Positions 3-40,791 of a stretch of 41,020 bases of DNA are shown in pieces. The translations under genes were made by a program, and so were the position numbers. Source of the stretch: Dehalococcoidia bacterium (GTDB lineage: Bacteria; Chloroflexota; Dehalococcoidia; Lucifugimonadales; UBA826); the NCBI GenBank assembly GCA_029936675.1, contig JAPYSB010000015.1, forward strand, positions 1-41,020. The letters are read 5' to 3'. Under the pieces are notes generated by a model. It had not been told where the DNA came from. It ran no database searches and saw only the letters and a list, made by a program, of their open reading frames with translations. Numbering within the stretch: position 1 is the stretch's first letter; each line of letters begins with the position of its first letter.

Positions 3-78
3 TGGAGCGGGAGACCGGATTCGAACCGGCGACCTTCTGCTTGGAAGGCAGATACTCTAGCCACTGAGTTACTCCCGC
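3..78 (-). tRNA. tRNA-Gly (anticodon TCC)
   Basis: On the minus strand a full cloverleaf can be folded. The acceptor stem GCGGGAG pairs with CTCCCGC, the anticodon stem TCTGC/GCAGA encloses the loop CTTCCAA, and the T arm carries GGTTCGAATCC. The anticodon is TCC, which reads glycine GGA codons. The terminal CCA is encoded (TGG at 3-5 on the plus strand). Only two bases of window lie beyond its 3' end, so any downstream partner is out of view. Confidence 0.96.
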
Positions 79-4507: not shown

Positions 4508-5605
4508 TTATATCAATTCCAATTCTTGCAATTCCAATCTTTGGGTGGTTTCGGAAAACCATTCAATAACTTCCTTGTGAAGGGGTATTCCACTCACCTT
4601 TCTTTTTGCCATTTCTTCACTTTCAGAAAGCCCAGGATATAGAACCCTGTCATGGCCTGGGGCAGGTGGAGTTGATTTAAGAGTTACAAGCATGTCATCC
4701 ATATTCTTTTTGTAATCATCAATATCAGTAAATGCGTCCACGTTATATGCTGCGAAATAGCTTCTGGAAGGCGTCCAAGACGGCGTATCTCTCAACATAC
4801 CAGGATCGTCTCCAGATAACAGGGAACCAAGTATTTCCACCATTAATCCGAATCCGTACCCTTTATGCGAACCCTGTTCTCTTGATCCTCCCAAGGGGAG
4901 TTGATAATAATCGTCTCTATCCACTATTTTGGTTTCTTCCATTATCGGGGAACCATCGCTACTCGCAACCCAACCCGGCAAAAGTGTGGCATCTACTCTG
5001 GCGGCCAATTTTAATTTGTTCCCCGCAACCGCCGAAGTCGCTGCATCAAACAATATTGGGGCCTCTAGGTTAGAAGGAGAGGCTATGGAAATAGGATTGG
5101 TTCCCAATCTTGGCTCTGCTCCGAATGTTGGGAGAATTCCTGTCCCAGCTGCCACCGAACACATGCCTACCATATCTTTTTGGGCTGCCATCATTGAAAA
5201 ATGTCCTACCGCACCCATGTGGCCACTATTAAACATAGTAACCACGCCGACACCCACGTCTCGTGCTTTTGAAATAGCCATTTCCATAGCTTGGACGCCA
5301 GCCATGATTCCAAGTGCCCTATCAGCGTCTATTGTGGCAGTACCCGGGCTTTCTTTAACTACCTGTATATTCGGGGTTTTATTGAGGTCCCCATCCTCGA
5401 AAAGCTGGACATAAACCCTTAGCATGTTTGAGACACCGTGAGTCTCAACTCCCCTTAGATCGGCAGTGACCAGCACGTCAGTTCCATTTTTCGCATCTTC
5501 CTTGCTTAGGCCTATTTTTTCAAATATATCTTGAACAGCCTTTCTCAAAGCAGACTCGGATACTTTTACTTGATCTTCCTTGGGCACTTTAAATCTATCT
5601 AGCAC
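4508..5605 (-). CDS. Ldh family (malate/L-lactate/ureidoglycolate-type) NAD(P) dehydrogenase
   Basis: The 365-residue protein matches the Ldh_2 family, a non-Rossmann NAD(P)-dependent 2-hydroxyacid dehydrogenase fold unrelated to classical LDH. The family signature TADLRGVETHGVSNM (R51, H56), the central SGHMGAVGHF with a probable catalytic His (H129), the GTNPIS loop and the C-terminal GSHKGYGFGLMVEIL are all present. Family members oxidise L-malate, L-lactate, ureidoglycolate, sulfolactate or similar acids; the substrate cannot be told from sequence. Translation starts at GTG with a perfect AGGAGG (5611-5616) five bases upstream. It lies between the phosphohexomutase (71-base gap) and polA (40-base gap), with no terminator seen in either gap. 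Confidence 0.9.
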   Translation of the reverse strand: MLDRFKVPKEDQVKVSESALRKAVQDIFEKIGLSKEDAKNGTDVLVTADLRGVETHGVSNMLRVYVQLFEDGDLNKTPNIQVVKESPGTATIDADRALGIMAGVQAMEMAISKARDVGVGVVTMFNSGHMGAVGHFSMMAAQKDMVGMCSVAAGTGILPTFGAEPRLGTNPISIASPSNLEAPILFDAATSAVAGNKLKLAARVDATLLPGWVASSDGSPIMEETKIVDRDDYYQLPLGGSREQGSHKGYGFGLMVEILGSLLSGDDPGMLRDTPSWTPSRSYFAAYNVDAFTDIDDYKKNMDDMLVTLKSTPPAPGHDRVLYPGLSESEEMAKRKVSGIPLHKEVIEWFSETTQRLELQELELI

Positions 5606-5676: not shown

Positions 5677-7098
5677 TCACCCGTCGACTATCATACGACA
5701 ATCTTGGATGATCTTTTTCACTTGGCCAGGGCTAGTTCCCTCAGCATAGAGTCTTATTAATGGCTCTGTCCCTGAGAACCTAATAAGGCCCCATGCATTT
5801 TCTTCAAGGTGTAATTTGAGTCCATCTCTGGTGTCGGTGTTTAAGACCTTCAATGCCCCTAAATGTTCAAATGTGGGCCTACTTATTCTATGTAATTTCT
5901 CTTCACGATCTTGCTCTTTAAATGCTATATCTTTCCTATCAAAATAATACGGGCCTGTTATTTTTTCCAGTTCCTCCAGCAAGTCTGACGGATTTAAACC
6001 CGTCACAGACATCATGTCTAATATCATTAGGCCGGAAAGTAAACCATCTCTTTCTGGAATGTGACCTGTAAACCCATATCCTCCGCTTTCCTCTCCTGCG
6101 GCTATTGCATTCTCCTCCATCATCACTGGGCCCAAATATTTAAATCCCACAGGAGTGTCTATCACATCTATATCATGTAATTTGCCTAACTTATTTATCA
6201 TGTTAGTCATGGTTATGGATTTTATTATTGGCCCCTTCAACCCCAGATTTTCGAGGAGGTGCTTGCAAATTAGGGCAAAAGTGTGAAGTGTCGATATGTA
6301 ATTACCTTCTTCGTCTGTAAGACCCAAACGATCAGCATCCCCGTCAGTTGCTAAACCCACATCAAAATTCGAGTTAGAAAGGAGTTTTCTTAAGGGTTCG
6401 AGATTTTTCTCTATTGGTTCTGGTTGAATCATGCCAGGGAAGCTAGGGTCTGGATTTCCCCTAATCTCTTCTACCCGACTTGACCCACCTTCTATTAGTT
6501 TGGCCAAATACTTTGATCCTGCACCATGCATAGAATCTATTGCTATATTTAGACCAGCATTTCTAATCCTGTTTAGATTGACTAGCTCTGCTATGTGATT
6601 TAAATAGGTCGGTTCGGGGTCTAATTTTTCTAGCATCCCCATTTTCTCTGCGGTTTCGATGGGCATTGTTGAAATTTTTTGGGATTTTTCTAGCTCAAAT
6701 ATATAAGTTTCAATCTCAGAAATTATCGCCTCTGAAGCACTTCCACCGTATGACGGTTTAAATTTGAAACCGTTCCACTCCGATGAGTTATGACTCGCTG
6801 TTATTACCACTCCAGCACCACATTCTCGTGACACCAGGTTATAACTCAGTACAGGGGTTGGACAGGGCCGATCACATAGAATTACAGGGATCTGGTTACC
6901 TGTTGCAACTTCTGCCACGGCTTCAGCGAAAATATTGGAATTCAGTCTTGTGTCATATCCAATGATTAGACCGTTTTCCTCTATCTCGCGGTCTTTCATG
7001 AAATTACAAACTGCTTGCGCGCATATCTTCACATTTTCTATAGTGAACTCTTCTGACATCAGGGCCCGCCAGCCATCTGTGCCAAATTTTATAGTCAA
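5677..7098 (-). CDS. Phosphoglucomutase/phosphomannomutase family protein
   Basis: 473-residue alpha-D-phosphohexomutase. The four family sites are intact: phosphoserine loop TASHNSSEWNG (S102), metal loop DGDAD (252-256), sugar-binding GEESGG (335-340) and phosphate-binding RFSGTEP (440-446). It should interconvert hexose 1- and 6-phosphates; glucose, mannose or glucosamine specificity is not decidable. The only plausible start is TTG at 7098, since the frame upstream has no ATG or GTG. The Shine-Dalgarno position is an unusual run of eight G (C8 at 7103-7110 on the plus strand). It starts 21 bases after metK and is probably cotranscribed with it. Confidence 0.92.
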   Translation of the reverse strand: MTIKFGTDGWRALMSEEFTIENVKICAQAVCNFMKDREIEENGLIIGYDTRLNSNIFAEAVAEVATGNQIPVILCDRPCPTPVLSYNLVSRECGAGVVITASHNSSEWNGFKFKPSYGGSASEAIISEIETYIFELEKSQKISTMPIETAEKMGMLEKLDPEPTYLNHIAELVNLNRIRNAGLNIAIDSMHGAGSKYLAKLIEGGSSRVEEIRGNPDPSFPGMIQPEPIEKNLEPLRKLLSNSNFDVGLATDGDADRLGLTDEEGNYISTLHTFALICKHLLENLGLKGPIIKSITMTNMINKLGKLHDIDVIDTPVGFKYLGPVMMEENAIAAGEESGGYGFTGHIPERDGLLSGLMILDMMSVTGLNPSDLLEELEKITGPYYFDRKDIAFKEQDREEKLHRISRPTFEHLGALKVLNTDTRDGLKLHLEENAWGLIRFSGTEPLIRLYAEGTSPGQVKKIIQDCRMIVDG

Positions 7099-7119: not shown

Positions 7120-8331
7120 TTAAAGGTTTATGGCTTTTTTAATATCTTCAACTTTATTGGTTCTCTCCCAGGGTAGATCAATGTCGGTTCTACCGAAGTG
7201 TCCGTATGAGGCTGTCTGGGCATATATCGGCCGCCTGAGATCTAGATCCCTTATTATCGCCCCTGGCCTCAGATCAAAATGTGTTTCTACTATCTGATCG
7301 ATTTCGTGGTTTGAAATTTTATTTGTACCAAAAGTTTCTATTGAGACCGATATAGGAGCTGAGATCCCGATTGCATAGGATACCTGGACTTCAGCTCTAC
7401 TTGCGACACCTGAGGCTACCAAATTTTTTGCTACCCATCTGGCTGCGTAAGCAGCCGACCTATCGACCTTTGTAGGGTCCTTTCCTGAAAATGCACCACC
7501 ACCATGTCTTGCCATTCCACCGTAAGTGTCAACCAATATTTTTCTACCGGTCAAGCCAGTATCCCCGACAGGTCCACCTATAACAAACCTCCCAGACGGA
7601 TTTACAATGAATCGGGTGTCAATAAGTAAATCTTTAGGGATTATATCCTTGGCCACCTTTTCAATGAGGTCTTTTTCAATGATTTTGTTCTCTACATCAG
7701 GATCATGCTGATTGCTAAGTAGAACGGTGTGCACACGTTTGGGCTTCCCCTTGGAATATTCCACTGTGACTTGGGATTTGCCATCTGGTCGAAGGTATTT
7801 TAATTCCCCGCTTTTCCTTACTTCGGACAGTTTTTTTGTTAATTGGTGAGAGAGCGACATTGGTAGTGGCATCAATTCTGGAGTCTCGTCACATGCAAAC
7901 CCCACCATCATTCCCTGGTCTCCGGCTCCCAATGATTCAACTTCATCATCTGACATGTCTTTTGACCTGGTTTCCAAAGCATTGCTAACGCCTTCAGATA
8001 TATCAGATGATTGCTCATCGATGGCAACCATCACCCCGCAGGTTTGATAGTCGAAACCGTAGGCTGGATCGGTATATCCAATGTTTTTAATTGTGTTTCT
8101 GACCAATCCAGGAATATCAACATACCCTTTAGATATACTTATTTCCCCCATCACTACCACTAGTCCCGTGGTACAAGCGACTTCACATGCCACTCTGGCC
8201 CTAGGGTCTAATTTAAGCATAGCGTCTAGAACACCGTCGGAAATCTGGTCACATATCTTGTCAGGATGTCCTTCAGTTACTGATTCTGAAGTGAATAAGT
8301 ATGATTCAGATTCCATAAAATTTAAAGTCAT
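7120..8331 (-). CDS. metK: S-adenosylmethionine synthase
   Basis: 403 residues, the usual bacterial length. It makes SAM from methionine and ATP, releasing phosphate and pyrophosphate. Signatures: [14 protein letters not shown] (21-25 is GHPDK, ATP/Mg site), GAGDQG hexapeptide (135-140) and the glycine-rich [16 protein letters not shown] (277-292). The ATG at 8331 follows GGAG with an 8-base spacer, which favours it over the ATG at codon 6. It is the fifth gene of the SAM-riboswitch-headed run, so it is probably repressed by its own product through the leader at 11884-12063. Confidence 0.97.
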
Positions 8332-8371: not shown

Positions 8372-10613
<2,242 letters not shown>

Positions 10614-10616
10614 GAA

Positions 10617-10970
10617 CTATAAATCAGTACCTTGACTAGTCGGGTAACCACGTTCGATCCACGTTGGCGTACCTTCTTCAATGTTGTATAGCTTCGATGA
10701 GTCATATCCCATTGCAGCAGCCATTTCACAAGCAAGGCCGCTCCTGACACCAGCGGCGCATATGAACAAGAGATCTTTGTCTCTAGGAAGTTCATCTATG
10801 CGTCCGAGAACATCATCTACCGTTATAAACAAGGCTCCCTCTACATGACCTTCAATGTATTCATCAGTTCTCCGTACGTCCACAAAAACCACATCTTCAT
10901 TACCATGTAGGTCGGCGGCCTCATCCACTGAGATTCTAACGTAAGGTTCCCCTTCGATTTGTTTAGGCAT
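10617..10970 (-). CDS. Single-domain rhodanese-like sulfurtransferase
   Basis: 117 residues from the ATG at 10970, which has AGAGGAG eight bases upstream. The reading frame stays open to 11099, but that longer form would overlap the MTAP gene and has no support. The rhodanese fold is clear: DVRRTDEYIEGHVEGA and the active-site loop CAAGVRSG with the persulfide cysteine C71, then the closing WIERGYP. Such proteins carry sulfane sulfur or act as thiosulfate:thiol transferases in the cytoplasm. Its place between MTA phosphorylase (17-base gap) and the PfkB kinase (3 bases) suggests sulfur handling linked to methionine/homocysteine turnover. The partner is not known. Confidence 0.9.
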   Translation of the reverse strand: MPKQIEGEPYVRISVDEAADLHGNEDVVFVDVRRTDEYIEGHVEGALFITVDDVLGRIDELPRDKDLLFICAAGVRSGLACEMAAAMGYDSSKLYNIEEGTPTWIERGYPTSQGTDL

Positions 10971-10987
10971 TACACACTCCTCTAATT

Positions 10988-11851
10988 TCAGATCGTTATA
11001 TATTTTTGCAGTAACACACCTAGTTTCTTTGCGCTTTTCTGGTTGTCTAGAATTCTTTGAGTCACCAGTGCATCTTGCAAAGATGTATTGCATATGCACT
11101 CGTCCTCTAATAAATCAATATTTTCTGCTATTTTACTGATAAGTTTTTTTGAAGTCTCCACATTTTGTTTGAGATTACTAATTACCATGCTAGCGGTCAC
11201 ATCTTCTTGATCTTCCTTCCAACAGTCATAATCTGTGACAAGAGCTACCGTCGCGTAACACATCTCCGCTTCACGAGCTAATTTAGCCTCAGGGATAGCA
11301 GTCATTCCAATGATGTCGCAGCCCCATTTTCTGTACAAATTGGACTCGGCTTTGGTGGAAAATTGAGGGCCTTCTATGGCTACGTACGTACCAGACAAAT
11401 GTCGATCTATTGCTAAGCTTTCACAAAAGGAATCGATCATTTTTGAAAGATCTTTGCAAAACGGATTTGCGAAGCTTATGTGAGCTACAAGGCCATCCCC
11501 AAAGAAGGTATCTTCTCTGGATTTAGTTCGGTCTATCAGTTGGTCTGGAATTACTACATCTAACGGTTTGATTGCTTCATTTAAGCTTCCCACTGCGGAT
11601 ACCGAGACCACTTTTTTGACTCCCAAAGTCTTTAAAGCATAAATGTTAGCTCTGTAGGGAATATCTGAAGGCGATAGAGAATGATCAGCGCCATGCCTTG
11701 GTATGAATGCTGCTCTTTTGTTTCCGATTGACCCTAATGTGACTGGGGAACTTGTATTACCAAAAGGGGTAGTGATTTCAATGGCCTCGAGATCTTTAAG
11801 GCCTTCCAATTCATAGACTCCGGACCCACCGATAAAAGCAGTTTCTATCAT
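10988..11851 (-). CDS. S-methyl-5'-thioadenosine phosphorylase
   Basis: 287-residue trimeric-type nucleoside phosphorylase. Phosphate loop GGSGVYELEGL (8-18), RHGADHSLSPSDIPYRAN, then the base and ribose sites VSAVGSL and IGMTAIPEAKLAREAE, and TDYDCW. The TDYDCW aspartate marks MTA/adenosine-type (6-amino) specificity as opposed to guanosine/inosine phosphorylases. It converts MTA plus phosphate to adenine and methylthioribose-1-phosphate. It is the first gene after the SAM riboswitch, so it should fall when SAM is high. No mtnA or later methionine-salvage gene is in the window, so the fate of methylthioribose-1-phosphate is not shown. The ATG at 11851 has only a weak SD. Confidence 0.93.
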   Translation of the reverse strand: MIETAFIGGSGVYELEGLKDLEAIEITTPFGNTSSPVTLGSIGNKRAAFIPRHGADHSLSPSDIPYRANIYALKTLGVKKVVSVSAVGSLNEAIKPLDVVIPDQLIDRTKSREDTFFGDGLVAHISFANPFCKDLSKMIDSFCESLAIDRHLSGTYVAIEGPQFSTKAESNLYRKWGCDIIGMTAIPEAKLAREAEMCYATVALVTDYDCWKEDQEDVTASMVISNLKQNVETSKKLISKIAENIDLLEDECICNTSLQDALVTQRILDNQKSAKKLGVLLQKYITI

Positions 11852-11883: not shown

Positions 11884-11911
11884 AAAAAAAAACTTCCCAA
11901 AGAGAGAAGTT
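11884..11911 (-). terminator. Rho-independent terminator, expression platform of the SAM riboswitch
   Basis: On the minus strand AACTTCTC and GGGAAGTT form an 8-bp stem (one T-G wobble) with a 5-base loop, followed by a run of nine T. It ends 32 bases before the MTAP start. The left arm TTCTCTC (11902-11908) is a perfect complement to GAGAGAA (11933-11939), which overlaps the 3' strand of aptamer P1. Without SAM that pairing would open both P1 and the terminator; with SAM the terminator forms. Confidence 0.92.
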
Positions 11912-11936
11912 ACTGAAAGTAATTATTGTTTGTTCT

Positions 11937-12063
11937 CTCATCTTCCGGGCACTACATTATCCCGCTGGAATTGGCACCGTATTTCAAAAAGAGCGTATGT
12001 TAATCTTTATTAAAGTCGGTTGCCGGGCGTCTAAGGGCCAGTCCCTCAGCCACTCTTGATAAG
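11937..12063 (-). ncRNA. SAM-I (S-box) riboswitch aptamer
   Basis: Minus-strand leader upstream of the MTAP gene. P1 pairs CTTATC (12058-12063) with GATGAG (11937-11942). The S-box core follows in order: AAGAGTGGCTGAGGGACTGG just inside P1, GCCCGGCAACC (12018-12028), GGTGCCAATTCC (11967-11978) and a P4 stem CGGG/CCCG before the closing GGAAGATGAG. P3 carries a longer AT-rich insert. This order and wording are those of the SAM-I class, which binds S-adenosylmethionine. It is linked to a terminator, so SAM binding should end transcription before the MTAP-rhodanese-PfkB-ahcY-metK genes. An Infernal search with the SAM-I covariance model would settle it. Confidence 0.95.
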
Positions 12064-12088
12064 TTCGCTATATTTAGTTTGTGGAAAA

Positions 12089-12117
12089 ATCGTACCTTAG
12101 TGCAATAGTTGAGTCAA
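12089..12117 (-). promoter_or_regulatory. Candidate sigma-70 promoter of the SAM-riboswitch operon
   Basis: Minus-strand TTGACT (12112-12117, 5 of 6) and TACGAT (12089-12094, 4 of 6) with exactly 17 bases between. The -35 box begins three bases after the phosphofructokinase stop codon. Predicted initiation near 12082 leaves about 20 bases before riboswitch P1, the right spacing for a leader transcript. Confidence 0.6.
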
Positions 12118-40714: not shown

Positions 40715-40791
40715 GGGCGGTTAGCTCAGTGGTTTAGAGCGCTGCGTTGACATCGCAGAGGTCATAAGTTCGACTCTTATACCGCCCACCA
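40715..40791 (+). tRNA. tRNA-Val (anticodon GAC)
   Basis: Acceptor stem GGGCGGT pairs with ACCGCCC, the D arm begins TAGCTCAGTGG, the anticodon stem CTGCG/CGCAG encloses TTGACAT with anticodon GAC (valine GUC/GUU), and the T arm contains GTTCGACTC. CCA is encoded at 40789-40791. Promoter-like words lie upstream: TTGACT (40645-40650) with TAAGCT 17 bases later. A TGCGCC/GGCGCA hairpin (40802-40818) stands ten bases after the CCA end but lacks a T-run. Confidence 0.96.

Follow-up and report, generated by a model that had tools for sequence, protein, structure and literature searches.

The stretch of DNA analysed here (the window, 41,020 nucleotides) carries on its minus strand what we consider, with a probability of about 0.9, to be a canonical SAM-I transcriptional OFF switch placed over a SAM-cycle operon, in which the position of the methylthioadenosine phosphorylase gene (MTAP) as the first target was derived through the loss of mtnA. 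The closest named relatives of the window are SAR202-cluster Chloroflexota MAGs, MTAP being 98% identical in locus L011.

A preliminary description had proposed a SAM-I riboswitch on the basis of S-box core blocks and a closing GATGAG, each of which was found in the sequence as quoted. The identity was borne out by the Infernal-type check suggested there, as a covariance-model search matched RF00162 over its full length (model positions 1-108) with 75.8 bits (E 3.5e-16), exceeding the gathering score of 44.4. RF00162 was the only RNA family to match the leader, and this was the single SAM-I copy found in the 2.19-Mb genome. P1 comprises 6 bp in the window (CUUAUC/GAUGAG, including one U-G pair), and the two outer P1 pairs of the RF00162 model are broken, a loss common to the whole of genus g1.

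Selection on the aptamer was apparent from an alignment of 38 leaders of the order, in which the SAM-I structure with its pseudoknot amounts to 30 pairs and 95.9% of the cells are paired. Changes on both sides of a pair were seen in 13 of the 30, pseudoknot pairs among them, and the covariation score was 0.253, as against 0.107 for shuffled alignments (none of 500 reached the observed value) and at most 0.092 for slid structures. Both the four-helix junction and the pseudoknot between the P2 loop and J3/4 were thus found to be supported by covariation. Twelve positions of the ligand pocket (alignment rows 6, 7, 11, 44-47, 90-92, 125 and 126) were invariant in all 38 leaders; these we take to be the SAM-contact positions of J1/2, P1 and the P3 internal loop in the solved crystal structure. 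J1/2 and the P3 internal loop match the SAM-I consensus in the window as well as in its relatives. Because the aptamer covaries and the twelve pocket nucleotides do not vary, the ligand is most likely SAM and not spermidine.

The coordinates of the parts of the expression platform are given in the table together with those of the operon genes. The 8-bp terminator with its nine T residues was present as originally described, and so was the 7-nt match between GAGAGAA and TTCTCTC, which proved fully complementary and shares the bases GAG with P1, these being both the start of GAGAGAA and the end of the P1 3' strand. P1 and the antiterminator are consequently mutually exclusive, with the terminator positioned 3' of them, and the calculated energies were -9.6 kcal/mol for the antiterminator duplex and -6.4 kcal/mol for P1. 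No further terminator-like site was seen on the minus strand between positions 1500 and 12200. Among 48 leaders, 41 had a terminator hairpin below -5 kcal/mol, and in 23 of these 41 the stretch on the 3' side of P1 paired with the 5' arm of the terminator above shuffled sequences (p<=0.05; about 2 expected), while in the remaining 18 it did not by this simple test; as eight of the leaders belong to the genus of the window and are nearly identical at the platform, the independent weight comes from the others (15 of 33). The terminator is invariant within the genus and hence shows no covariation there, but in several other leaders (e.g. L127, L139 and L154) the antiterminator sequence has changed with its pairing retained. 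The proposed terminator/antiterminator logic was supported. Minimum-free-energy folding of the full leader was dropped as proof of the switch, since the resulting fold is a long-range alternative and not the SAM-I fold; this is to be expected for an aptamer held by its ligand and a pseudoknot, and gives no independent support.

A sigma-70-like promoter (TTGACT-17-TACGAT) follows immediately upon the stop codon of the PFK gene that lies upstream. A consensus scan alone was at chance level here (1 site found, 0.7 expected), and the argument for the promoter is its conservation: the other seven leaders of the genus retain both hexamers, one of them having TTGACG, and similar sites occur in two further genera and in family f24.

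Table. Positions of the riboswitch, its expression platform and the genes of the operon in the window
Feature	Position	Strand	Basis
Sigma-70-like promoter, TTGACT-17-TACGAT	12089..12117	-	conservation
SAM-I riboswitch aptamer (RF00162)	11935..12065	-	covariance-model match, covariation in 38 leaders, invariant pocket
P1 5' strand, CUUAUC	12058..12063	-	covariance-model match, pairing analysis
P1 3' strand, GAUGAG, partly common to antiterminator	11937..11942	-	covariance-model match, pairing analysis
Antiterminator 5' half, GAGAGAA	11933..11939	-	7 bp with 11908-11902
Antiterminator 3' half, UUCUCUC, overlaps terminator 5' arm	11902..11908	-	pairing analysis
Intrinsic terminator	11884..11911	-	8-bp stem 11911-11891, nine T 11892-11884
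S-methyl-5'-thioadenosine phosphorylase (MTAP), gene 1	10988..11851	-	TIGR01694, 314.9 bits (cut-off 274.85)
Rhodanese-domain protein	10617..10970	-	PF00581; start inferred from relatives
PfkB-family kinase	9666..10613	-	PF00294; below cut-off of every NCBIfam equivalog
Adenosylhomocysteinase (ahcY)	8372..9643	-	TIGR00936, 627 bits
Methionine adenosyltransferase (metK)	7120..8331	-	TIGR01034, 573.5 bits
Phosphoglucomutase/phosphomannomutase family protein (pgm), conserved operon tail in the order	5677..7098	-	profile matches, relatives
Ldh_2 family dehydrogenase	4508..5605	-	PF02615; 71-nt gap

The assignment of MTAP as the first and metK as the fifth gene behind the switch was correct, with the rhodanese-domain protein, the PfkB-family kinase (possibly an adenosine kinase) and ahcY between them. 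The rhodanese frame is open to position 11099 and its homologues begin near 10970; with the start placed as in these homologues, intergenic gaps would not exceed 71 nt. No terminator-like site was found on the minus strand before the Ldh_2 gene, which is probably co-transcribed with the operon. The first codon of MTAP (window positions 11851-11849) varies among close relatives, being ATG in the window, ACG in L006, CTG in L002 and L003 and TTG in L005, and translation of MTAP may really begin at near-cognate codons or at other sites. MTAP was also found directly 5' of a relative of the PfkB kinase in several other phyla (Dadabacteria, Deltaproteobacteria, Aminicenantes and others; loci L032-L035, L039, L041, L042, L046, L051, L060, L071, L072 and L077), an adjacency that suggests a functional link. 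Near the ends of the contig, tRNA genes are present at window positions 6-78 (minus strand) and 40715-40788 (plus strand).

By analogy with the riboswitch family, from which SAM binding as well as the direction of regulation is taken, the switch would operate as follows. Transcription would start just 3' of the promoter, and at low SAM concentrations GAGAGAA, made up of the P1 3' side and the bases that follow it, would pair with UUCUCUC, block the terminator and allow MTAP, rhodanese, pfkB, ahcY, metK and pgm (and probably ldh2) to be transcribed. Binding of SAM would stabilise P1 and release UUCUCUC, so that the 8-bp terminator could form and stop transcription before MTAP. SAM would in this way lower its own synthesis (metK) jointly with SAH hydrolysis (ahcY) and the phosphorolysis of MTA (MTAP). 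As the operon holds the only metK match in the genome (G000), the switch would subject SAM synthesis to feedback, and it would also set the capacity for removing MTA and SAH.

The arrangement of the window was compared with that of its order, in which 109 of 247 genomes had a SAM-I match above the cut-off, nearly always in single copy. A match to mtnA was also present in 86 of these 109 genomes, and in every one of the 86 it followed the switch directly and in the same orientation, the match to the mtnA model starting 71-235 nt from SAM-I. The usual order in relatives is SAM-I-mtnA-MTAP-rhodanese-(pfkB)-ahcY-metK-pgm. In the family of the window (f1), mtnA gave no match in any of 16 genomes, some of which are incomplete (G004, 55%). 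All family members with SAM-I have MTAP, the five members without MTAP are also without SAM-I, and G006 has MTAP without SAM-I. Sampling of 30 SAM-I loci from the remainder of the class showed 20 to be mtnA-first, and L237, from another family, provided a second MTAP-first case. A core-motif regex, which finds 71 of the 79 loci fetched for SAM-I, gave one match among 73 distant MTAP loci from other phyla (L018-L090), and this was not beside MTAP; because no adjoining SAM-I was obtained in this set, an MTAP-first order behind SAM-I is not general.

Other gene arrangements behind SAM-I were also encountered in the order. Genus g36 (family f31; L133 and L228-L230) and genus g75 (family f19; L150, L226 and L227) have neither mtnA nor MTAP behind the switch, and rhodanese is first there. 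Downstream of the SAM-I element at positions 475-580 of L157 (G189) lie an M50/PDZ peptidase gene (rseP-like) and an ispG-like gene, the latter called from its sequence, with no SAM-cycle genes, and a second SAM-I element in G093 (L147, G093:C9:16735-16853) precedes a gene for a molybdopterin-binding oxidoreductase (PF00174).

Between SAM-I and MTAP, all five genomes of family f24 were found to carry a truncated MtnA of about 140 aa. The frame (138-149 aa, about 415-450 bases) encodes the MtnA N-terminal domain without the remainder of the enzyme and scores 31-39 bits against an MtnA profile; it begins at position 688 in L130, 292 in L222, 271 in L223, 272 in L224 and 258 in L225 (reverse complement). 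As pairwise dN/dS values are about 0.2-0.4, the fragment is apparently kept as a protein under purifying selection. The MTAP-first order is most likely derived, mtnA having been lost from an mtnA-first operon in the family of the window, so that the leader now abuts MTAP; this loss is argued from the spread of mtnA through the order and class and from the f24 remnant, and not from a tree. The opposite direction, in which MTAP-first would be ancestral and mtnA inserted later in the other families with the switch working just as described, is unlikely. A tree of MetK and AhcY, the root of which was left open, recovered the family of the window as one clade (SH-aLRT 100) and, when drawn with midpoint rooting, gave f1 a weakly supported position near the base, beside other families without intact mtnA, as such a history would have it; the predominance of mtnA-first loci both in the order and in the rest of the class, and the truncated mtnA retained by f24 in the same slot, nevertheless argue for loss. 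The preliminary description had regarded the target order as odd. That MTAP comes first is true, but the order is not odd in principle, given that the relatives have mtnA and then MTAP and the family has no mtnA.

The MTAP-first position also raised the possibility that the aptamer is a SAM-I variant for another ligand, such as spermidine, MTA or SAH. SAM-I variants that do not accept SAM but bind spermidine are known 5' of polyamine genes (PMC10853860), and spermidine synthesis yields MTA, the substrate of the first gene here. Those variants, however, depart from SAM-I in J1/2 and in the internal loop of P3, where the window is canonical, and MTA showed no sign of a ligand role even for them (PMC10853860). 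With the contact positions invariant in 38 relatives, and SAM-cycle genes rather than polyamine synthesis genes in the operon, a ligand other than SAM is highly improbable. It is likewise very unlikely that the element is a decaying relic whose sequence lingers after regulation was lost along with mtnA. The absence of the two outer P1 pairs from genus g1 and of SAM-I from G006 and the five members without MTAP would fit such decay, but comparison of homologous leaders, which had been put forward as a check on P1 and terminator pairing, supported a SAM-I switch: the genus and two further genera have retained the P1 core together with the pocket, the antiterminator and the terminator, whereas variation is seen in the loops of P3 and P4.

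A SAM sensor before MTAP thus looks like the remainder of the SAM-I-mtnA-MTAP-ahcY-metK operon that is widespread in the class, in which one switch is placed over SAM synthesis and by-product clearance. In keeping MTA phosphorolysis without the next enzyme of methionine salvage, this marine family presents a gap in sulfur metabolism. One tentative and rather doubtful explanation is that f1 kept SAM-I for the removal of MTA (perhaps also 5'-deoxyadenosine) and not for methionine recovery, with MTR-1-phosphate leaving by an undescribed route, for example through the PfkB kinase or the rhodanese; its basis is that mtnA is gone from the family while MTAP and the switch were kept or lost largely together. 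Nearly all genomes of the family lack the C-terminal domain of MetE (PF01717) as well as the MetH B12-activation domain (PF02965). A broken methionine cycle is not claimed, because a stand-alone, single-domain homocysteine methyltransferase (PF02574, about 300 aa) is present in all 16.

The control of by-product disposal by a SAM sensor, put forward at the outset as part of the odd point, has long been known. In Bacillus subtilis, mtnKA is an established S-box target (PMC5519356), and a 2007 study of metagenomes reported an S-box before mtnA (COG0182; PMC2211319). Similarly, metK is a standard SAM-I target, and SAM-class riboswitches are known to govern metK-ahcY elsewhere (PMC4239095). There is therefore nothing new in the salvage of by-products being under SAM-I, and the mechanism here is ordinary. 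A search of the literature collection for SAM-I with MTA phosphorylase gave no publication in which MTAP is named as a SAM-I target, and one for SAR202 with riboswitch returned nothing on SAM at the level of titles and abstracts.

Compared with the S-box leaders of B. subtilis (yitJ, mtnK/mtnA and metK), the leader described here has the same aptamer architecture, pocket, pseudoknot and terminator/antiterminator OFF design. The S-box targets of B. subtilis are spread over many separate operons, whereas here one switch precedes a single operon joining MTAP, ahcY and metK, in SAR202-clade Chloroflexota. In B. subtilis the MTA-salvage genes mtnK and mtnA (PMC5519356) are likewise under S-box control, as is metK. 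The metagenomic S-box-mtnA arrangement (PMC2211319) is that of most relatives of the window, which itself differs in being without mtnA and having MTAP first. The SAM-Chlorobi, SAM-SAH and SAH riboswitches (PMC4239095) also control SAM-cycle genes (metK-ahcY, metK and ahcY, respectively), but they are RNA families other than RF00162. The spermidine riboswitch (PMC10853860) has the overall fold and transcription termination in common with the leader, but its pocket differs in J1/2 and P3, whereas that of the window is canonical.
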